Origin: Desulfobacterales bacterium
GTDB lineage: Bacteria > Desulfobacterota > Desulfobacteria > Desulfobacterales > UBA11574
Length of the DNA: 39,143 nucleotides
NCBI GenBank assembly: GCA_030145345.1
Contig: JAQYVT010000019.1
Coordinates: 1 to 39,143, forward strand
Direction: 5' to 3'
Shown here: piece by piece, positions 6,166 through 37,573 of the stretch
How positions within the stretch are numbered: position 1 is the first letter of the stretch
How the letters are laid out: each line of letters begins with the position of its first letter
Program-made: the position numbers and the translations under genes
The notes under the pieces: generated by a model
What the model saw: only the letters and a program-made list of their open reading frames with translations
What the model was told of the DNA's origin: nothing
The model's database searches: none

Positions 6166-6269
6166 GGTGCAATATACAGATTGTCCGAAGTTGTGACTTA
6201 AAAAATGGAATTATGTCTCCATGGATCGATGCCGGAGAAAGGAGAGAAAAATAAAGATGTATTTTTATC

Positions 6270-6365
6270 AACTTCCCTACGCCGGCATGATCCGGATCAG
6301 GTTCCACGGGTCGAGGCCTTAAGCCTCCTCTCAGCCGATTTACATTCGGCTCCCCCAGTGACTCA
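6270..6365 (-). promoter_or_regulatory. TPP riboswitch (THI element) for the thiZXY importer
   Basis: Read on the minus strand, the sequence contains the hallmark blocks of a TPP aptamer: GGCTGAGAGGAGG, then CCCGTGGAACCTGATCC, GGATCATGCCGGCGTAGGGA. The CTGAGA and the GAACCTGAT/GCGTAGGGAA blocks are the pyrimidine- and pyrophosphate-binding arms. Between the aptamer and the gene, a short hairpin ATGGA-N8-TCCAT followed by at least five U residues (6222-6200) could be the terminator of the expression platform. Confidence 0.93.
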
Positions 6366-6473
6366 ATGGCTGATTGCTAACACGAGTATTTCTGTTTGTC
6401 AAACACGGAACCGGCGGGTGGATAATAAAAAACTTGCTAATTTTTTTTCAGACTGATAGGGGAGTGTCAAAAT

Positions 6474-6560
6474 CCGGATAGGGGTGTTCTGATTTTATCG
6501 CAGAACTGAGAGCATACCCTTTGAACCTGATACAGTTCGCACTGTCGTAGGGAAATCGGA
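6474..6560 (+). promoter_or_regulatory. TPP riboswitch (THI element) for thiD and the Nramp-like gene
   Basis: The plus strand carries AGAACTGAGAGCATACCC, then TTTGAACCTGATACAGTTCG and CACTGTCGTAGGGAAAT, the conserved TPP aptamer blocks. P1 can form between TCCGGAT (6474) and ATCGGA (6555). Downstream, CGGAG (6557-6561) can pair with CTCCG (6582-6586) ahead of a T-run, a possible but unproven expression platform. This aptamer lies head to head with the minus-strand one, about 110 bp apart. Confidence 0.9.
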
Positions 6561-6675
6561 GAACCATGCATGACGTTTTTACTCCGCCATTTTTTCATCG
6601 TTTTTCCGTTCCCCGTATCGATATGGTGCTTTCGTGTTAAATTCTTAACGATCACATCGGATCAGGAGGTTTTTC

Positions 6676-20701: not shown

Positions 20702-22978
20702 ATGTTCAAAATGTTTAAACATCTTCGTATTAACCTGGTCTCAAAACTCATCCTTTCCGTGGGTCTGACGTTACTCCTAAGCATATCTACATGGGCCTAC
20801 TTCAATATTAATTATCAGACGAAAAAGGTCATGAAAGATATTATGGAGGGAACCGACCGATTGAGCAATACCATTATCCTCGGTGCCCATTATGCGATGA
20901 TGATCAACTCAAGGGATGATATTAACCATATCATAAACAACATCAGCAAACAGAAAGAGATCGATACCATTCGTATCTACAATAAAAAAGGACAGATAAA
21001 ATTTTCAAACCGGCCTTCGGAACTCGAAGTGACCACCAACATAAAAGCAGAGGCCTGTGATGTATGCCACCGGTCGGATCCCCCTCTGTCTGAGCTCCGC
21101 CTGTTGCAGAAGACACGAATATTTCATTCTTCACAAGGTCACCGCCTCCTGGGTATTATCAGCCCGATCCGCAACAATACCGGCTGTTCGTCGGATTCCT
21201 GCCATGTACATCCTGAGGGGAAGAAGATACTGGGAGCCCTCGATGTTGTGGTCTCCCTAAAAGAAACCGATGAAGAAATATCTTTTTTTGAAAACGGTAT
21301 CATCGTTCTGGCTGTTTTTGCTTTCCTGGTAACATCCGCCATTATTTTCATTTTTGTATTAAAATTTGTAAATCAGCCCATTAAAAAGCTGATCAGCACA
21401 ACCGATCTTATTGCCAAAGGCGAGTATTCAAACGATATCGGCATTGATCAGAACGATGAAATGGGCCAACTGTTTACGGCCATAAACAAGATGGGCACAC
21501 GAATTGTTGAAAAGCAGGCTGCACTTAAAAAACAGCGGGACGAATACCAGAACCTGTTCGAGCTTGTACCCTGTCTGATTACGATTCAGGACAAAGACTA
21601 TAAGCTGATCAGTTACAATAAAGAGTTTGCGGAAACTTTCAATCCCACGCCGAATAATTTTTGCTATCGTGTTTATAAGCAGCGCGATGAAAAATGTAAG
21701 ATCTGTCCGGTTGAAAAAACTTTTAAAGACGGCCAGGCCCATTACGGCGAAGAAACCGGCTTGAGTAAAGACGGGACGAGAACGTATTGGGTTGCCAGAA
21801 CGTCTCCAATTTTGGACGCACAGGGCAAAATCGTTGCTGTCATGGAAGTTTGCCTCGACATAACCCGAATGAAGCAACTTGAAGAGCGGCTTGAAAAATC
21901 AGAGAAAAAATATTACGCCATTTTCAACAACATCCCCAACGCCGTCTTTGTGTTGGACGTGAGTACCCTTAAAATACTCGACTGCAATAAAAGTGTTACC
22001 GATGTTTACGGATATGAAAAGGATGAGATCACCCAAAGATCCTTTCTGGATTTATTCCTCGATGAGGAAAGAGACCATTATGCTTTCAAAATAATGACAT
22101 CTGCTTACGTAAACCAAGCGAAACATGTCAATAAAGACGGCAAAACACTTTTTGTGGCGATTCGGATTTCGCCGTCGGAGTATCTGGGACAAAAAGTGCT
22201 GCTTGTTACCACCAGCGACATTACCAAGCGGCTTGACGCCGAACATCAACTCATTCATGCCGGCAAAATGGCAACCCTGGGAGAAATGGCCACCGGCATT
22301 GCCCATGAATTGAATCAACCGCTCTCGGTCATTAAAACCGCAAGTAATTTCTTTATAAAAAAATTGGATCAAGACCATTCCATCGACAATGATCTTCTTT
22401 ACAACATGCTTGAGATGATCGACCACAATGTTGACCGTTCGGCCAAAATTATCAATCATATGAGACAATTTGCCCGAAAATCGGATGTGGTTCTGGGTAA
22501 GGTTCAGGTCAACGAAGTGCTGGGAAGAGCTTTTGAAATTTTCAGCCAGCAACTCAAAGCCAGGGGAATCGACGTGGTCTGGGATATTGATAAACGACTG
22601 CCCGAGATAATGGCAGATCCCAGCCGGTTGGAACAGGTTTTTATAAACCTTATTTTAAATGCCAAGGACGCCATCGAGGAAAAGCGGGCATCTGCCGAGC
22701 CGCCCTTGGGCACCAAAAAGATCACGCTTAAAACAAAACTCGTGGGAGAAACGGTCGTTGTCGAGATCACCGATACAGGGGCAGGGCTTCCTGAAGATAT
22801 ATCAGACAAGATATTTGAGCCGTTCTTCACCACTAAAGAAGTCGGCAAAGGGACCGGCCTCGGCCTTTCGATCAGTTATGGTATAATCAGAGATTGCGGC
22901 GGAGACATAAAAGTGGCGACCAATGAAGAAGGAGAAACCTGTTTTAGTATAACTTTCCCTGTAGAGGATGTTGAATGA
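20702..22978 (+). CDS. Periplasmic haem-c-type sensor histidine kinase with two PAS domains
   Basis: A 758-residue kinase. Transmembrane segments at about 13-33 and 199-221 enclose a periplasmic domain with a c-type haem site CDVCH (119-123) and a second CX4CH motif at 162-168 ([10 protein letters not shown]). Then come HAMP, two PAS domains (the first carrying [16 protein letters not shown]), HisKA with acceptor His 535 ([16 protein letters not shown]), and HATPase ([20 protein letters not shown]). It probably senses redox state or a haem ligand outside the inner membrane. Two ATGs are possible (20702, 20711). Its stop overlaps the next gene by four bases. Covalent haem attachment is inferred from the motif. 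Confidence 0.9.
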
Positions 22979-24453
22979 TGGAAAAAACAATTTTACTGGT
23001 GGATGATGAACCGGATATCCGCGAGGTTCTGAATATATCTTTGTCTGATATCGGCTATAAGGTTCTTACCGCCGAAAATGGGGCGGATGCCCTAAACATC
23101 TTCAAAAATACCGACATCCCGGTGGTCATTACCGATATTAAAATGCCCGGCATTGACGGTATCGAGCTTCTTCGAAAAATTAAACACGAAAATCCAGAAA
23201 CAGAGGTCATCATGCTCACCGGCCATGGGGATTTAGATCTGGCCATAAAAAGTTTAAAATTTGAAGCCACCGATTTTATCACAAAGCCAATCAACGATGA
23301 CGCCTTGGAATTGGCCCTGATAAGAGCCTTTGAAAAAATTGCAATGAGAAAAAAACTCAGGGAATACCACCGAAACAGGGCCATGAATGATATTCTCATC
23401 AATGAGCTGATTCAGGAAGACATTATGATAATTGGATCCGACTATCGGGTTCTGGATATCAATGAAACCCTGCTGAACAAATTGGGGCTGGAGAAAGAGG
23501 AGGCCATCGGTCGGTACTGTTATGAAATTACGCACAGGCAAAAATCAGCATGTTCCGGTGAGAATCATCAATGCCCCCTCGTGCGAACGCTCAAGACACA
23601 TAAATCTTCCAAGGAAACCCATGTCCATAAAGACAAGAACAATAAAAATATCTATTATTCAATCTCTGCATATCCTCTGTTTGAAAACGGCCAAGTGATC
23701 GGCGCCATTGAGCTGTCCCGGGATATTACGGCCGATATCAATGCTCGGCAGGCAATGATGAAACAGGACAAACTGGCATCCATCGGCCGGTTGTCCGCCG
23801 GTGTGGCCCATGAAATCAATAACCCTTTAACCACAATTCTAACCAGCACCATGTTGATCCAGGAGGATATCGCCCCGGATGACCCCATTCAAGAGGAATT
23901 GGAAACCATCGCCAATGAAACCCTTCGCTGTCGCAAGATCGTTACCAGTCTTCTAGATTTTGCCCGCCAGACAAAACCCGCCAAAACGCATTACAATATC
24001 AACAAAATTGTGGGTGAATGTATCGAGTTAACTCGAAAACAGGCGACATTCCATGATTTAACCATCGTATCGAACCTTTCCGATGACATGCCGACGGTGC
24101 TGATGGATAAAGATCAGGTACAACAGGCGGTTATCAATCTCATACTCAACGCCACAGACGCAACGGATTCTGGAGGAACCATCACGGTTTCAACTCAATT
24201 TATTCCACAGGATAAGGTTGTTGAAATTGCCATAAGCGACACCGGCAAAGGGATTTCCGGAGAGAATACAGATAAAATTTTTGAACCTTTTTTTACCACC
24301 AAGGACAGCGGAACCGGGCTTGGATTGGCCATTACCCATGGCATCATCGGTCAACACGGCGGGACGATCGATGTCAAAAGCAACCAAAGTCAGGGAACAA
24401 CTTTCACCATCAGACTTCCCCAAAACCGAGGAAAACAAGATGGCAATCCATGA
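22975..24453 (+). CDS. Receiver-PAS-histidine kinase hybrid
   Basis: A 492-residue protein. Residues 1-120 are a receiver (LLVDDEPD, phospho-acceptor Asp in VVITDIKMPG). Residues about 135-255 are a PAS domain with conserved cysteines in YCYEITHRQKSACSGENHQC. HisKA follows with the acceptor His at 279 (AHEINNPLTTI), then HATPase (DTGKGISG, GTGLGLAITHG). It is soluble, with an N-terminal receiver feeding a C-terminal kinase. It sits between a haem-type kinase (4-base overlap) and a sigma54 activator (14-base overlap), so a phosphorelay running kinase to hybrid to activator is plausible. The Cys-containing PAS may bind a metal or cofactor. Confidence 0.9.
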   Translation: MMEKTILLVDDEPDIREVLNISLSDIGYKVLTAENGADALNIFKNTDIPVVITDIKMPGIDGIELLRKIKHENPETEVIMLTGHGDLDLAIKSLKFEATDFITKPINDDALELALIRAFEKIAMRKKLREYHRNRAMNDILINELIQEDIMIIGSDYRVLDINETLLNKLGLEKEEAIGRYCYEITHRQKSACSGENHQCPLVRTLKTHKSSKETHVHKDKNNKNIYYSISAYPLFENGQVIGAIELSRDITADINARQAMMKQDKLASIGRLSAGVAHEINNPLTTILTSTMLIQEDIAPDDPIQEELETIANETLRCRKIVTSLLDFARQTKPAKTHYNINKIVGECIELTRKQATFHDLTIVSNLSDDMPTVLMDKDQVQQAVINLILNATDATDSGGTITVSTQFIPQDKVVEIAISDTGKGISGENTDKIFEPFFTTKDSGTGLGLAITHGIIGQHGGTIDVKSNQSQGTTFTIRLPQNRGKQDGNP

Positions 24454-25867
24454 TCCCCGTATCCTCATTGTCGATGATGAACCGGCCATCTGTAGGAATT
24501 GCGTAATAATACTGACGAAGATGGACTATGAAGTCAAGTACGCCCTCAATGGTTATGATGCGCTGAAAATGTTGGAAGCGGAACCGTTCGATGTGGTGGT
24601 CACCGATCTGAAAATGAGCAACCTGGGGGGCATGGAGGTCTTGCGGCGTCTAAAAGAGACCCACCCGGAAACCATGGTCATTGTAATTACAGGATATGCC
24701 AGTGTTTCCTCGGCGGTCGAAGTAATGAAGATGGGCGCGTTTGACTATCTCCCAAAACCGTTTACCCCCCACGAACTGCGTTCGGTTGTCCATCAGTCTC
24801 TTGTGGAAAGAGAAATGTTGCTTCAAAACCAGCGGCTTATGCAGAAAAAAGTTCGGTTGAAATCATTTTCTCATCAGCTCATTGGAGACAGTCCTAAAAT
24901 AAAAAAGGTGGTCTCCATGGTACAAAAGGTTGCCCCCACCGATTCGACGGTCCTTGTCTACGGAGAAAGCGGAACCGGAAAAGAATTGATTTCAAGGGCG
25001 GTCCATGCCAACAGTACCAGAAAAGACAAGGTGTTTTTTGCGGTAGATTGCGGAACGTTATCGGACAACCTTCTGGAAAGCGAGTTGTTTGGTCACGCCA
25101 AAGGCGCTTTTACAGGGGCGCATACCCTTAAAGAGGGTATATTCAAGCTGGCGGATGGCGGGACCGTATTCCTGGATGAAATCAGCAACATCAGTATCAA
25201 CGTTCAAAGCAAACTGCTTCGGTTTTTAGAAAACCGCGAATTTTTACCGTTGGGAAGCACGGTTAATCAAAAAGTGGATGTTCGTTTGATTTTTGCCACC
25301 AATAAGGACCTCAAAGACATGGTGGCCCAAGGTTTCTTCAGAGAAGACTTCTATTATCGAATTTTTGTATATCCGATTATGGTTCCCCCGCTCAGGGAGA
25401 GGAAAACGGATATTTTGCCCATATCCTACCATTTCTTAAAACAGTTCAACCAAAGCTTTGGCAAAAGGATTTCCGGATTCGAGGATACGGCTGTCACGCG
25501 ATTAACGGAATATGATTGGCCGGGGAACGTCAGACAATTGAGAAATGTCATCGAAAGGGCCGTCATACTGTGCGAGGGGGATCAAATTACGCTCAAAGAA
25601 CTTCCGCTAGTCGGGGACGTCGCGGATATCGAACAGCTCATCGACCATATTCCTTCAACCAACGATGAACTTAAAAGAATCAAAAAAGAGATCCGGCGGC
25701 GAGCGGTTGCCAAAGTTGAAAAGAATTTTGTCATGAATGCGTTGATGAAAAACAATTGGAACGTCACCCGTGCAGCAGAAAAAGTTGGGCTGCAAAGAAC
25801 CAACTTTCAATCGTTAATCAAAAAACACCATATAAAAATTCCCCGACACCCCCGGTCAGATTCGTGA
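24440..25867 (+). CDS. Sigma54-dependent response regulator (NtrC family)
   Basis: A 475-residue activator. Residues 1-120 are a receiver (LIVDDEPA; Asp in VVVTDLKMSNLG). Residues about 145-375 are an AAA+ domain with Walker A GESGTGKE (about 175), intact sigma54-contact loop GAFTGA (about 222), Walker B VFLDEISN and arginine finger region FREDFYYRIFVYP. A Fis-type HTH closes it at about 435-470 (NWNVTRAAEKVGLQRTNFQSLIKK). ATG 24440 is used because it gives a normal receiver N-terminus and a short overlap with the previous gene; the longer ORF from 24281 is out of family. A sigma54 promoter with paired upstream palindromes follows 500 bases downstream, a likely target. Confidence 0.93.
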   Translation: MAIHDPRILIVDDEPAICRNCVIILTKMDYEVKYALNGYDALKMLEAEPFDVVVTDLKMSNLGGMEVLRRLKETHPETMVIVITGYASVSSAVEVMKMGAFDYLPKPFTPHELRSVVHQSLVEREMLLQNQRLMQKKVRLKSFSHQLIGDSPKIKKVVSMVQKVAPTDSTVLVYGESGTGKELISRAVHANSTRKDKVFFAVDCGTLSDNLLESELFGHAKGAFTGAHTLKEGIFKLADGGTVFLDEISNISINVQSKLLRFLENREFLPLGSTVNQKVDVRLIFATNKDLKDMVAQGFFREDFYYRIFVYPIMVPPLRERKTDILPISYHFLKQFNQSFGKRISGFEDTAVTRLTEYDWPGNVRQLRNVIERAVILCEGDQITLKELPLVGDVADIEQLIDHIPSTNDELKRIKKEIRRRAVAKVEKNFVMNALMKNNWNVTRAAEKVGLQRTNFQSLIKKHHIKIPRHPRSDS

Positions 25868-25878
25868 ACCATCGAATA

Positions 25879-26074
25879 TTTGATGAACTCGTAAAAAGTC
25901 TGATTTTGCTCGCTCCGCAAGCAATTTTGGGATTCATGACTCGCCTGGCTAAATTGCAAGAACTCGGGCTAACACCCTCAAACAGCTTGCAATTTTTAAC
26001 ACCAGACGCGTCATGAATCTTTCTCCAAAATTGCTCGATGTCGCTCACAAAAGACTTTTTACGAAACCGTCAAT
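25879..26074 (+). repeat. 196-bp nested-palindrome element, copy C
   Basis: Same 196-bp length and orientation as copy B. Its 11-bp core ends are CGTAAAAAGTC (25890-25900) and GACTTTTTACG (26053-26063). The inner arms are GATTCATGAC with GTCATGAATC and AAATTGCAAG with CTTGCAATTT. These arm sequences differ from copy B yet remain complementary. It lies between the sigma54 activator stop and the first upstream palindrome of the next promoter. Confidence 0.9.
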
Positions 26075-26084
26075 ATTTATACGG

Positions 26085-26103
26085 TGTATATTTTTTTTAT
26101 ACA
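26085..26103 (+). promoter_or_regulatory. Upstream activator palindrome 1
   Basis: TGTATA-TTTTTTT-TATACA is a perfect 19-bp inverted repeat. Its 17-bp core recurs at 26282-26298. It lies 270 bp upstream of a sigma54 promoter and could be a binding site for the NtrC-family regulator encoded directly upstream. Confidence 0.6.
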
Positions 26104-26280
26104 ATCCATATATTTTCATTTCAGCATCCTGAAAGGGCCTCCTTCCACCCCTTGAAGTTTCTTTGCAAAAATAATTTATATAAATATTATCAACTGATTG
26201 TCTCGTTTATTCTTTTGACGCTCAACATAAATTTCAAATTCACTTCCCACGCAAACCTGTTCTCATGTCCAACGGGGATG

Positions 26281-26299
26281 CGTATATTTTTTTTATACA
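26281..26299 (+). promoter_or_regulatory. Upstream activator palindrome 2
   Basis: CGTATA-TTTTTTT-TATACA repeats the same palindrome with one changed terminal base. It lies 74 bp upstream of the -24 element, the usual distance for enhancer binding. Confidence 0.6.
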
Positions 26300-26372
26300 C
26301 ATCCGTTTCGACCCAAGTATTCCTTTGATTTATATTGAATAAAAACAAGCTTTTAGCGTTCTGGGCCTCTTT

Positions 26373-26388
26373 TGGCACGCAACATGCA
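26373..26388 (+). promoter_or_regulatory. Sigma54 (-24/-12) promoter
   Basis: TGGCAC-GCAAC-ATGCA matches the TGGCAC-N5-TTGCW consensus, with GG and GC spaced by exactly ten bases. It lies 85 bases before ATG 26473 and downstream of two identical palindromes. No sigma70 boxes are evident here. Confidence 0.78.
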
Positions 26389-26472
26389 TAGATGCCGGGT
26401 AAGATGCATTATACCATGAAACATAAATTTACATAAAAAATAACAGATGAAATTCATTTTAAGGAGGAAAAA

Positions 26473-27705
26473 ATGGGAACAGCAGCAAAAATTATGGTGG
26501 TCGATGATGAAAAACAGATCTGTCAAAATGTGGAAAAAATCCTTTCCAAAAACGATTACGAGGTCATTCGCGCAACCAGCGCCAAAGAGGCCCTGGAAAA
26601 AATGGCCAAGGATTCCTTTTCGCTTCTTATTTCGGATATCGTTATGCCCGAGATGAATGGCCTTGAGTTTCTGAAACTGGTTAAAAAGGAATGGCCGCTG
26701 ACCAAAGCGATAATGATGACCGCCTATGCATCCACAGATACGGCGGTTAAAGCCATACGGCTCGGGGCTCTGGACTATCTTTCCAAACCGTTCACTCCCG
26801 ATGAGTTGAGATCTACGGTTAAACTGGCCCTGTCCGGAGATTTAACCGAGGCGGTGATAACGGAGAAGGAAAAAGAGATCATTGATGTGGATATCCCCTT
26901 TGACAGAGATGATGTGGCAAAATATACCGGTGAGGACTTTGTAGACAGGTTGGGTCCTTCGGATATGCCGGTGGTGGAAGCAGCACCGGAAACCCTTGAA
27001 AATTACTGTGCATTGGGGAATATGGTCTGTGATATTTTCAAAAAGCTCGGGGCGACGTGTAAGGGCGGGAACAAGACCGGAGAATGTCCCCAGTTAAAGG
27101 CTAAAAAGAGAAAGGCTGCCAAAGCGAAAGGGTTTGACGGTGAAAAACTGATCGGCATCGATTCTCCGTTTAACTACGAAGAAACGGTTTCGATAACCGG
27201 TCCTGAATATGTTTTGAACATGCAGCACGAAGGGGTTGCTTTTATGCCCTATGAAGAACTCAAGCAGAACGTTGCACAGATGATGGAAAAAGCGCCCGAA
27301 CGTCCGGCAGAGGTCATAGAGATTTCGAAAGAAATGGTTCCGGCTGGAATTCTGGTGGTTGATGACGAAGTCGCTGTCAACAATAATATCCGGAAAATAC
27401 TCTCCAAAAAAGGTTTTAGTGTGGATCAGGCCGTCACCAAAACCGAGGCACTTGAGAAAATAGAAGAAAGCGCTTACACCCTTGTTCTGTTGGATCTGAA
27501 AATGCCCGATGTAAAAGATCTGGAACTTCTAAAAGCGATTCGTGACCGGAGACCGGAAACCATGGTCATTATCATTACCGGGTATGCCAGTATCGAGACG
27601 GCAGTGGAAGCCTCAAGGCTGGGCGCTGTCGATTATCTTGCCAAACCGTTTACACCCGACGAAATCCGGAACGCAACTGAAAAAGCGTTCCGTCTTGCCG
27701 CTTAG
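26473..27705 (+). CDS. Double-receiver protein with central cysteine-containing segment
   Basis: A 410-residue protein with no recognisable output domain. Residues 1-120 are a receiver (MVVDDEKQ; Asp in SLLISDIVMPEMN), and residues about 293-410 are a second receiver (LVVDDEVA; LVLLDLKMPD). The central region (about 145-285) has two copies of a D-x-PF-(D/N)(R/Y)(D/E) motif (DVDIPFDRDDVAKYTGEDF and IGIDSPFNYEETVSITGPEY), and between them CALGNMVCDIFKKLGATC...GECPQ, which could hold a metal. AAGGAGG precedes the ATG. It sits under a sigma54 promoter and directly before the Hdr/Nuo/Fdh operon. Its role is probably as a phosphate sink or protein adaptor. Confidence 0.85.
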   Translation: MGTAAKIMVVDDEKQICQNVEKILSKNDYEVIRATSAKEALEKMAKDSFSLLISDIVMPEMNGLEFLKLVKKEWPLTKAIMMTAYASTDTAVKAIRLGALDYLSKPFTPDELRSTVKLALSGDLTEAVITEKEKEIIDVDIPFDRDDVAKYTGEDFVDRLGPSDMPVVEAAPETLENYCALGNMVCDIFKKLGATCKGGNKTGECPQLKAKKRKAAKAKGFDGEKLIGIDSPFNYEETVSITGPEYVLNMQHEGVAFMPYEELKQNVAQMMEKAPERPAEVIEISKEMVPAGILVVDDEVAVNNNIRKILSKKGFSVDQAVTKTEALEKIEESAYTLVLLDLKMPDVKDLELLKAIRDRRPETMVIIITGYASIETAVEASRLGAVDYLAKPFTPDEIRNATEKAFRLAA

Positions 27706-27709
27706 GACA

Positions 27710-27749
27710 AAAGAATCTCCCAGCCACTTTTTGGGTTGGGAGATTCTTT
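27710..27749 (+). terminator. Rho-independent terminator after the double-receiver gene
   Basis: A 13-bp perfect stem (AAAGAATCTCCCA with TGGGAGATTCTTT) closes a 14-nt loop, four bases after the stop codon. It separates the regulatory gene from the hdrA operon. Confidence 0.8.
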
Positions 27750-27881: not shown

Positions 27882-27965
27882 ACAAACCTTAGAATTTTAT
27901 TGACAAACCTCAGAATACTTTATAGTTAAACTGCTTGGTTCACTCTAACGTAACGTTATCGTTAC
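27882..27965 (+). promoter_or_regulatory. Control region of the hdrA-nuoEF-fdhA operon
   Basis: ACAAACCTYAGAAT occurs twice (27882-27895 and 27903-27916), centres 21 bp apart, that is two helical turns. The second copy overlaps a -35 TTGACA (27900-27905); the -10 is weak (TATAGT 27921-27926, spacing 15). A perfect inverted repeat GTAACG-TTAT-CGTTAC lies at 27950-27965 in the leader. Together they look like tandem activator or repressor sites plus an operator or hairpin. Confidence 0.4.
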
Positions 27966-28015: not shown

Positions 28016-28417
28016 ATGCCCAAAGATGTAATCGGATCGGTTCTGGTTTTAGGTGGAGGGATTGCCGGAATGCAATCCGCTCTGGATCTTGCCAACTCGG
28101 GATATTATGTCTATCTCGTCGAAAAATCCCCTTCCATTGGCGGAGTTATGGCTCAGCTGGACAAAACTTTCCCCACCAATGATTGTGCTATGTGAATTAT
28201 TTCACCCAAACTGGTCGAGGTCGGCCGGCACCTGAATATTGAAATTATCACATACGCGGATCTGGAATCTGTGGAGGGTTCCGCCGGAAACTTTAAAGTA
28301 AAGGTTAAAAAACGGGCGCGTAGTATCGATATGGATCTCTGTACGGGCTGCGGGAACTGCGTTGAAAACTGCCCGGTTGTAAACATACCGATGCCCAAAA
28401 ATCAGGTAAAAGCTTAG
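28016..28417 (+). CDS. hdrA: HdrA N-terminal flavoprotein segment, selenocysteine-containing
   Basis: A 133-residue protein when the UGA at 28193-28195 is read as Sec60. Residues 9-41 form the dinucleotide-binding start [18 protein letters not shown]...VEKS. Then comes [13 protein letters not shown][15 protein letters not shown], where HdrA normally has Cys at the Sec position (a flavin/FeS ligand). Residues 109-120 are one ferredoxin motif [12 protein letters not shown], after which the protein ends. Full HdrA is about 650 residues, so this is only its N-terminal segment. The missing part continues in the fusion gene at 30924. AAGGAGG precedes the ATG. It is the first gene of the operon. Without Sec insertion the product would be a 59-residue stub. 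Confidence 0.88.
28211..28228 (+). promoter_or_regulatory. Candidate SECIS hairpin in hdrA
   Basis: Fifteen bases after the UGA, CTGGTC pairs with GGCCGG (two G-U pairs) around the loop GAGGTC. This position and the GGTC in the loop resemble bacterial SECIS elements. Confidence 0.6.
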
Positions 28418-35536: not shown

Positions 35537-37573
35537 ATGGATTTTAAAATCATTCCTTCGACATGTTCATATTGCGGTACCGGTTGCGGTGTTCTTTTCC
35601 AGGTGATGGACGGCCGGCTCATCGATACCCTGCCGATGAAAACGCATCCGGTCAATGAGGGAAAACTTTGCATTAAAGGATGGAATCTTCATGAACATGT
35701 GATTAGCGATAAACGTCTTAAATCTCCAATGATAAGAAAAGATGGTGAATTACAGGAAAGCACATGGGACGAAGCCATACAAACATCGGCCGACAAATTC
35801 AAGAGCATCATTAACGACCATGGGCCGGACAGCGTCGGTGTGCTTCTTTCCGCCAAGATTACCAATGAGGAGAATTATGTGGCCCAGAAATTTGCCAGAG
35901 CAGTGATCGGAACCAACAATGTGGATCACTGTGCCCGTCTCTGACATTCTTCCACAGTGGCAGGTCTTGCCGCTGCGTTCGGAAGTGGAGCCATGACCAA
36001 TTCCATCGCTGAAATTGAAGATTCGGCGTGTATTTTTATTATCGGTTCGAATACGTCCGCGTGTCATCCGCTGATTGCCCGGCGTGTTTTCAGGGCCAAG
36101 GAAAAAGGCGCCAAACTCATTGTGGCCGATCCTAGAAATATCCAACTGTCCCGTTTTGCGGATGTTGCCGTCACCCAGAGACTCGGCAGCGATGTGGCGT
36201 TGTTAAACGGCATGATGCATATTATTCTCAAGAACGGCTGGCACGATAAAAATTACGTTGAGAATAGAACTGAAGCATTTGAAGATTTTAAGGACGTCGT
36301 TGAGTCATATACACCGGATAAAGTTGAAAGCATCACAGGTGTCGCACAGAGCGATCTTGAAAAAATGTCCGAGCTTTATGCCACAAATTCCCCGGCGGCA
36401 TTACTCTATGCCATGGGGATTACCCAGCACACCACGGGTGTGGACAATGTCAAATCCTGCTGCAATATCGCCATGCTTTGCGGAAATGTGGGTGTAAAAA
36501 GCGGTGGTGTGAATCCCTTAAGAGGTCAGAACAATGTTCAGGGTGCCTGTGATATGGGGGGATTACCCAATGTATTTCCCGCCTATCAGCCGGTGACGGT
36601 TGAGGCCAACAATGAAAAATTTGTCAATGCATGGGGGAAACCGCTTTCGGATAAAATCGGCTATACCATCACAGACATGATTCAGGCCATGATCGATGGT
36701 AAATTAAAGGCCCTTTATGTCATCGGGGAAAATCCGAAAATGAGTGATCCCGATCAGAATCATCTCGAAAAGGCCCTTGCAAATCTCGATTTTCTTGTGT
36801 GCCAGGACATTTTCCTGTCTGAAACCGCACAAAAGGCGGATGTGGTCTTTGCCGGGGTGTCGGTTGCTGAAAAGGATGGAACCTATACCAATACCGAACG
36901 CCGCTGTATGAAGGTGAATAAAGCCATTGATCCCATCGAAAATACGCTGAACGACTGGGAAATCATCTCCAGATTATCTACAGCCATGGGCTATGAGATG
37001 AATTATGAGAGTCCTGAAAAAATCTTTAACGAAATGACCACGTTGACGCCAAGTTACGGCGGCATGACGTACGAAAGGCTCGGTCTTGACGGACTTCAAT
37101 GGCCCTGCCCGAACGCTGAGCATCCAGGAACGCAGTTTTTACATAAGGATCAGTTCACCCGAGGAAAGGGACTTTTCCATGCCGTCGAGTATCTCGATCC
37201 TGCTGAGATGCCGGATGAAGAATATCCCTATTGGCTCACCACCGGCAGAATGTTCGCCCATTATCATACCGGCACGATGACGCGTGTCTCTCCGCATCTG
37301 GATACCGAGCAGAAAACCGGATATGTAGAGATTAATCCTGAAGACGCCAAAACGCTGGGCGTTAATGATGGTGAAACGGTACGTCTTGCCACTCGAAGGG
37401 GTGAAATCGAAGCACCGGCCCGGGTCAGCAATAAGGTGGTACCCGGCGTGCTTTTCGTGCCGTTTCATTTTGCAGAAAGCCCGGCCAATATACTTACCAA
37501 TTCCGCCTTTGACCCGATTGCCAAAATTCCGGAATATAAGGTCTGTGCGGTAAAAATCGAAAAAGCCGCCTAA
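35537..37573 (+). CDS. fdhA: Formate dehydrogenase catalytic subunit, selenocysteine-containing
   Basis: A 678-residue molybdopterin oxidoreductase when UGA 35942-35944 is read as Sec136. The N-terminal [4Fe-4S] ligands are Cys10, 13, 17 and 45 (CSYCGTGC...EGKLCIKGW). The active site is DHCARL-Sec-HSSTVAGL, exactly where FdhA proteins carry Sec or Cys as the Mo/W ligand. Further landmarks are FGSGAMTNSI, NPLRGQNNVQGACDMGGLPNV and the C-terminal molydopterin domain with RVSPHLDTEQ. No signal peptide is present, so it is cytoplasmic. It oxidises formate or reduces CO2. It lies about 80 bases after the FeS subunit and ends the operon at a strong terminator. Confidence 0.96.
35955..35975 (+). promoter_or_regulatory. 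SECIS hairpin in fdhA
   Basis: CAGTGGCA pairs over eight positions with TGCCGCTG (one G-U) around loop GGTCT, ten bases after the UGA. The GGTCT loop and distance closely resemble the Escherichia coli fdhF SECIS. Confidence 0.85.

Follow-up and report, generated by a model that had tools for sequence, protein, structure and literature searches.

Which regulator acts on the sigma-54 promoter that lies between an NtrC-type activator gene and a double-receiver gene in this Desulfobacterales contig, and how many genes does that regulator serve? Within the window, that is, the whole 39,143-nucleotide stretch of DNA analyzed here, the promoter and the gene behind it comprise the following elements:

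26085-26103, no strand: distal enhancer palindrome TGTATA-TTTTTTT-TATACA (TGTATATTTTTTTTATACA), read directly and kept in orthologous loci
26281-26299, no strand: proximal enhancer palindrome CGTATA-TTTTTTT-TATACA (CGTATATTTTTTTTATACA), read directly
26373-26388, + strand: sigma-54 promoter TGGCACGCAACATGCA, GG-N10-GC exact, with TGGCA and TGC elements
26461-26467, + strand: Shine-Dalgarno sequence AAGGAGG, read directly and kept in relatives
26473-27705, + strand: target gene, encoding a REC - Cys4 module - REC protein (P0002) with no recognized output domain

An earlier note on this DNA had described a sigma-54 promoter with exact GG-N10-GC spacing, preceded at 270 and 74 bp by two identical TGTATA-T7-TATACA palindromes. 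Direct reading places the promoter at 26373-26388 and confirms both distances, counted from the last base of the palindrome to the first base of TGGCAC (270 bp for the distal and 74 bp for the proximal copy). The palindromes, each 19 bp long, are not fully identical: the distal one has the form described, but the outer left base of the proximal one is C, so that its left arm reads CGTATA. The stretch common to both copies is 18 bp (GTATATTTTTTTTATACA) and not the 17 bp given earlier.

Given the AT-rich intergenic region and its end-to-end similarity among the nearest relatives, the palindromes could in principle be a chance product of base composition or unselected similarity left over among close relatives. 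Among 3,000 dinucleotide shuffles of the 605-bp intergenic region, five contained at least one GTATA-N5-9-TATAC and none contained two; a repeated 18-mer never appeared. The exact TGTATA-N7-TATACA sequence occurs once in the 3.57-Mb genome (188 contigs), and the looser GTATA-N5-9-TATAC is found 14 times, compared with 29 for the reversed control. The form with a 7-bp spacer, GTATA-N7-TATAC, is present three times, two of them at promoter 26373, and sites with up to two mismatches (n = 125) are rarer than those matching the reversed pattern (n = 167). Because these counts fall below the reversed control, the motif is not scattered through AT-rich DNA, the outcome that the earlier note had named as fatal to its proposal.

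Conservation among relatives carries the argument further. Scanning genome contigs for the target protein yielded 22 close related loci. Both palindromes and the sigma-54 box recur ahead of nearly all related loci that have enough upstream sequence and are kept ahead of target orthologues down to ∼60% protein identity; the layout extends to dozens of relatives across the Desulfobacterales and to one genome outside the class (G419). In 23 aligned loci, the TGGCA and TGC elements of the promoter are invariant, and the proximal palindrome starts 90 to 95 bp before TGGCA. The distal palindrome floats, lying 115 to 198 bp beyond the proximal one (345 bp in one locus). The palindrome arms carry nearly full information in these loci and are better conserved than the spacer, which has a constant length of 7 bp, is rich in A/T, and usually has T on the top strand. 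In some distant loci, the proximal site is shifted (117 bp in L107; 84 to 85 bp in L111 and L114), and some proximal sites there are weak: none was found at up to two mismatches in L113, L116, L119, and L122. A clear proximal site is missing from L020, and a clear sigma-54 box from L121.

For a hold-out search, the query run against the genomes of the order was limited to the middle of the target protein, which was present in 23 of 116. Fourteen of the loci, found by protein alone, were new, and motif discovery had made no use of them. Each of the 14 has, within 500 bp, a palindrome with one mismatch at most, compared with about 9 such sites elsewhere in the entire 3.57-Mb genome, and a sigma-54 box is present in 13. 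One further new locus, L085, was set aside; it is a more remote match (47%) and has no site. Shuffles, genome counts, and hold-out loci thus all contradict chance or leftover similarity; with the sites kept even where the surrounding DNA is unrecognizable, that explanation is refuted at the level of sequence conservation, and we assign it a negligible probability. Dyad-symmetric sites upstream of a promoter, held at a defined distance from it and kept among relatives, are the sequence signature of a bacterial enhancer (UAS).

The same alignment bears on a different function for the palindromes, namely, as repressor or architectural sites bound by an A-tract binding protein, with the sigma-54 box driven by an unrecognized enhancer. 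T-tracts bend DNA, and the spacers are A/T-only in most copies, as such a role would have it. However, it is the arms and not the spacer that are most conserved, the spacer length does not vary, the proximal site consistently lies where a sigma-54 enhancer would be expected, and the motif is private to promoter 26373. A repressor or architectural role is accordingly very improbable, and the palindromes are treated below as enhancer sites.

The control region proved richer than the earlier note had it; that description was borne out, but two elements had been missed:

26079-26082, + strand: extra ATAC half-site, 2 bp upstream of the distal palindrome, read from the 23-locus alignment
26343-26355, + strand: IHF-like site AAACAAGCTTTTA, one mismatch to WATCARNNNNTTR, between the proximal palindrome and the promoter

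An exact ATAC accompanies the distal palindrome in 19 of the 23 loci and is missing from the proximal one, and partial left arms lie ∼20 bp from the distal palindrome in several loci. The distal element thus resembles a pair of neighboring dimer sites, with the outer one degenerate. An IHF-like sequence, with at most one mismatch to WATCAANNNNTTR and starting 27 to 32 bp before TGGCA, is found in 17 of 32 loci versus 0.4 expected; the maximum in 2,000 shuffles was 4, and almost none occur at other offsets. These 32 loci were only loosely filtered for redundancy and include a few near relatives, and one of them (L035) is the unrelated match in G466, a genome considered below. The IHF consensus of Desulfovibrio vulgaris allows R at position 6, so that further loci would be added under it. 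An IHF consensus between enhancer and promoter is the sequence mark of an IHF-assisted sigma-54 promoter. The genome encodes RpoN (one PF04552 match, 220.6 bits) and has 13 matches to the HU/IHF family, a family-level count in which IHF itself is not singled out.

A repeat borders the control region on its upstream side:

25880-26074, no strand: MITE-like inverted-repeat element of 195 bp, between the activator gene and the enhancer

This element has 22-bp terminal repeats and ∼11 genome copies at ≥91% identity, along with many diverged ones. The earlier note had pointed out that its copy C ends ∼10 bp before the first palindrome; this is true but incidental, because the insertion is absent from the close relatives L002 and L003. 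Both have an empty site, with the flanking AATATTT (AATGTTT in L003) present once, and L001 has the same insertion as the window. The repeat is a mobile element whose insertion lies beside, and did not disrupt, the control region.

The candidate regulator and its partners are encoded directly upstream:

24440-25867, + strand: NtrC-type activator, REC - AAA+ with GAFTGA - Fis-type HTH, the proposed binder of the palindromes
22975-24453, + strand: REC-PAS-HisKA-HATPase histidine kinase with an N-terminal receiver, the proposed partner of the activator
20702-22978, + strand: HAMP-PAS-PAS histidine kinase, which lies upstream in the operon and is also found in L001, L003, and L082

The three domains of the activator (PF00072, PF00158, and PF02954) all score above their cut-offs, giving it an NtrC-type architecture, and the GAFTGA loop is intact in the protein (P0001), as noted earlier. 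The order of receiver, sigma-54 AAA+ domain, and Fis-type HTH, together with GAFTGA, is that of enhancer-binding proteins of the NtrC/AtoC/ZraR type. Assignment to the AtoC, NtrC, or ZraR equivalogs was rejected, as the scores of 405.8, 373.4, and 364.6 bits lie far below the respective cut-offs of 714, 558.6, and 760. In a close relative, the activator gene is split into two overlapping tblastn frames (L003:4263-5589), which may reflect a frameshift or an assembly error. The N-terminal part of the kinase at 20702-22978 contains a CxxCH motif (ACDVCH) and a second cysteine-histidine motif and is possibly a c-type heme sensor.

Several genomes separate the regulator from its presumed target. 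G419, which lies outside the class, has a target with both palindromes and the 92-bp spacing, and its regulator orthologue (69% identity; next best, 44%) is located on another contig, which also carries the kinase and is devoid of such sites. In G203, the regulator (72%) and the target are on different contigs, and both genes and the sites persist. The regulator (62 to 73%) is found elsewhere on the contig of the target in G166, G156, G009, and G001. The kinase at 22975-24453 adjoins the activator in relatives, including those in which the pair is unlinked from the target. Among target-lacking genomes (9 of the family and 10 of the order), nothing exceeds ∼46% identity to the regulator. The activator is present in G254 and G675, where the contigs end before the target region; in G218, where the target is near a contig end, no activator orthologue was found. 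These three genomes are uninformative about the pairing. Orthologous regulators keep the recognition helix QR(T/S/P)NF(Q/H), whereas paralogues do not.

An activator encoded elsewhere might bind the palindromes instead, the linkage to 24440 being incidental. Relatives encode 42 to 134 NtrC-family matches per genome in most of the genomes searched, which leaves room for such a protein. Against this, only the 24440 orthologue tracks the target and its sites, even when unlinked (G419 and G203), and its recognition helix is unusually conserved. A second activator is therefore an improbable explanation, if the least improbable of the alternatives weighed here. Linkage, co-occurrence, and helix conservation together make the pairing of 24440 with 26473 the best explanation and the 24440 product the best candidate binder of the palindromes. 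The proposal of the earlier note that the adjacent NtrC-type gene regulates this promoter is likewise favored by the sequence footprint, the hold-out loci, the specificity of the motif, and the unlinked co-occurrence, all of which agree.

The search of the genome for further palindromes that the earlier note had recommended as a way to define the regulon returned, apparently, a single target. Each exact TGTATA-N7-TATACA in 24 family genomes adjoins the regulator-target gene pair, except one in G134. Across the phylum, only 3 of 395 genomes have a site properly spaced from a sigma-54 box, and one of these (G466) is unrelated to the regulator-target pair. A genome-wide regulon was sought without success: sites with one or two mismatches are fewer than in the reversed-pattern control. 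Between 19900 and 25900, no site was found at up to two mismatches; thus, nothing suggests that the kinase-activator operon regulates itself. The hdr-like operon farther downstream was also rejected as a direct target: the gap ahead of the HdrA fragment contains a conserved TTGACA-type promoter and no sigma-54 box, so that only the double-receiver gene looks like a sigma-54 target. The activator at 24440-25867 thus appears to serve only the target at 26473.

These observations lead us to a model that we consider highly probable, although it is built from sequence comparison: the NtrC-type regulator 24440, switched by a kinase, activates 26473 as a single-gene unit through the palindromes, DNA looping, and sigma-54. 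A histidine kinase, most likely 22975, would switch on the response regulator, which would then bind as dimers to both TGTATA-N7-TATACA sites, the distal one with its extra half-site. The bound regulator would form an AAA+ oligomer and contact RNA polymerase-sigma-54 at 26373-26388 by DNA looping, aided by an IHF-type protein between the proximal site and the promoter. Activation of the promoter would turn on 26473 and the production of the double-receiver protein with its invariant four-cysteine module. The sites, their spacing, their specificity, and their co-occurrence with the regulator are found in the genomes compared; from them, we infer the binding, phosphorylation, looping, and activation of the 26473 system.

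The mechanism is that of classical sigma-54 enhancer control, and its closest counterparts come from a sulfate reducer. The orp operons of D. vulgaris Hildenborough are controlled by the enhancer-binding protein DVU2106, sigma-54, and IHF, and their promoters need IHF between enhancer and promoter, as tested in Escherichia coli (PMC3897727). Palindromic activator sites, sigma-54 promoters, and WATCARxxxxTTR-type IHF-like sites between them are common to both systems (PMC3897727). However, DVU2106 is a one-component regulator of divergent operons involved in cell division, whereas 24440 is the response regulator of a two-component system and has one target, which encodes a signaling protein. 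NtrC-type response regulators of D. vulgaris are described as recognizing inverted repeats of 4 to 6 bp, 3 to 8 bp apart, with several mapping to one target (PMC3333781, PMC4641369); the present system resembles these single-target sigma-54 two-component regulators (Rajeev 2011, PMC3333781; Kazakov 2015, PMC4641369) in its NtrC-type regulator, inverted-repeat sites, and single target. Neither paper prints a GTATA or TATAC motif in its main text (PMC3333781, PMC4641369). The site of DVU2394, the one regulator linked there to hdr genes, is a direct repeat, unlike the palindromes described here. As far as the main texts of the cited D. vulgaris papers go, the site code, the regulator-target pairing, and the target are new. 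The outcome is a concrete set that can be taken to the bench: a regulator, an operator code (TGTATA-N7-TATACA), a promoter, and a single target. To our knowledge, few sigma-54 regulators with known sites have been described in the Desulfobacterales.

The target gene is followed by a terminator-like structure:

27710-27749, + strand: hairpin terminator-like inverted repeat after the target gene, kept in relatives

Four cysteines of the module (C179, C186, C196, and C205) are invariant in 18 orthologues, and one group of loci has the module twice in tandem. Neither a Pfam domain nor a PDB match was found for the module or the middle part of the protein, and in the AlphaFold model, the receivers are well ordered and the middle has a pLDDT below 50. 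That the cysteines bind metal is a guess. The C-terminal half of the module (PFDYEEV..TxPEYV..L) is shared by two proteins, GcvH-like by eye, that are encoded elsewhere in the same genome (L104:6116-7210 and L104:7434-8240).

Beyond the target lie an HdrA-like fragment (28016), NuoE, NuoF, HdrA, and the formate dehydrogenase alpha subunit (35537-37573; TIGR01591, 842 bits, above cut-off). NuoE/NuoF/HdrA genes follow the target in most loci with enough downstream sequence (the window, L001, L003, L004, L010, L013, L020, G419, G008, G011, G123, G132, G283, and G218), NuoF/HdrA genes follow it in G001, and rnf genes, assigned by eye without a family search, follow it in L015, L017, and L018. This neighborhood, NuoE/NuoF/HdrA in most loci and rnf in three, suggests a role in controlling NADH/ferredoxin energy coupling, an aspect of sulfate-reducer regulation that is not well understood, and the target may be a phospho-adaptor tied to NADH/ferredoxin electron transfer. 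We would go further only tentatively, to a conjecture that is more likely wrong than right: the target could represent a new class of redox-gated double receiver, in which the Cys4 module, present once or in tandem, binds a metal or an Fe-S cluster; the system would sense the ferredoxin/NADH state and tune the adjoining Hdr-NuoEF(-formate dehydrogenase) or Rnf complexes, with the supply of the sensor under a dedicated sigma-54 switch.

Finally, the window contains several features of separate interest. In-frame TGA codons, probably specifying selenocysteine, are present in the HdrA-like fragment (28016-28414) and in the formate dehydrogenase alpha gene (35537-37573). Another palindrome, GTAACG-TTAT-CGTTAC (27950-27965), is located just upstream of the HdrA-like gene and downstream of its TTGACA-type promoter; its GTAACG/CGTTAC arms are kept in the closest relatives and not in L004. 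Two TPP riboswitches, at 6257-6366 (− strand) and 6470-6571 (+ strand), lie on opposite strands, facing away from each other.
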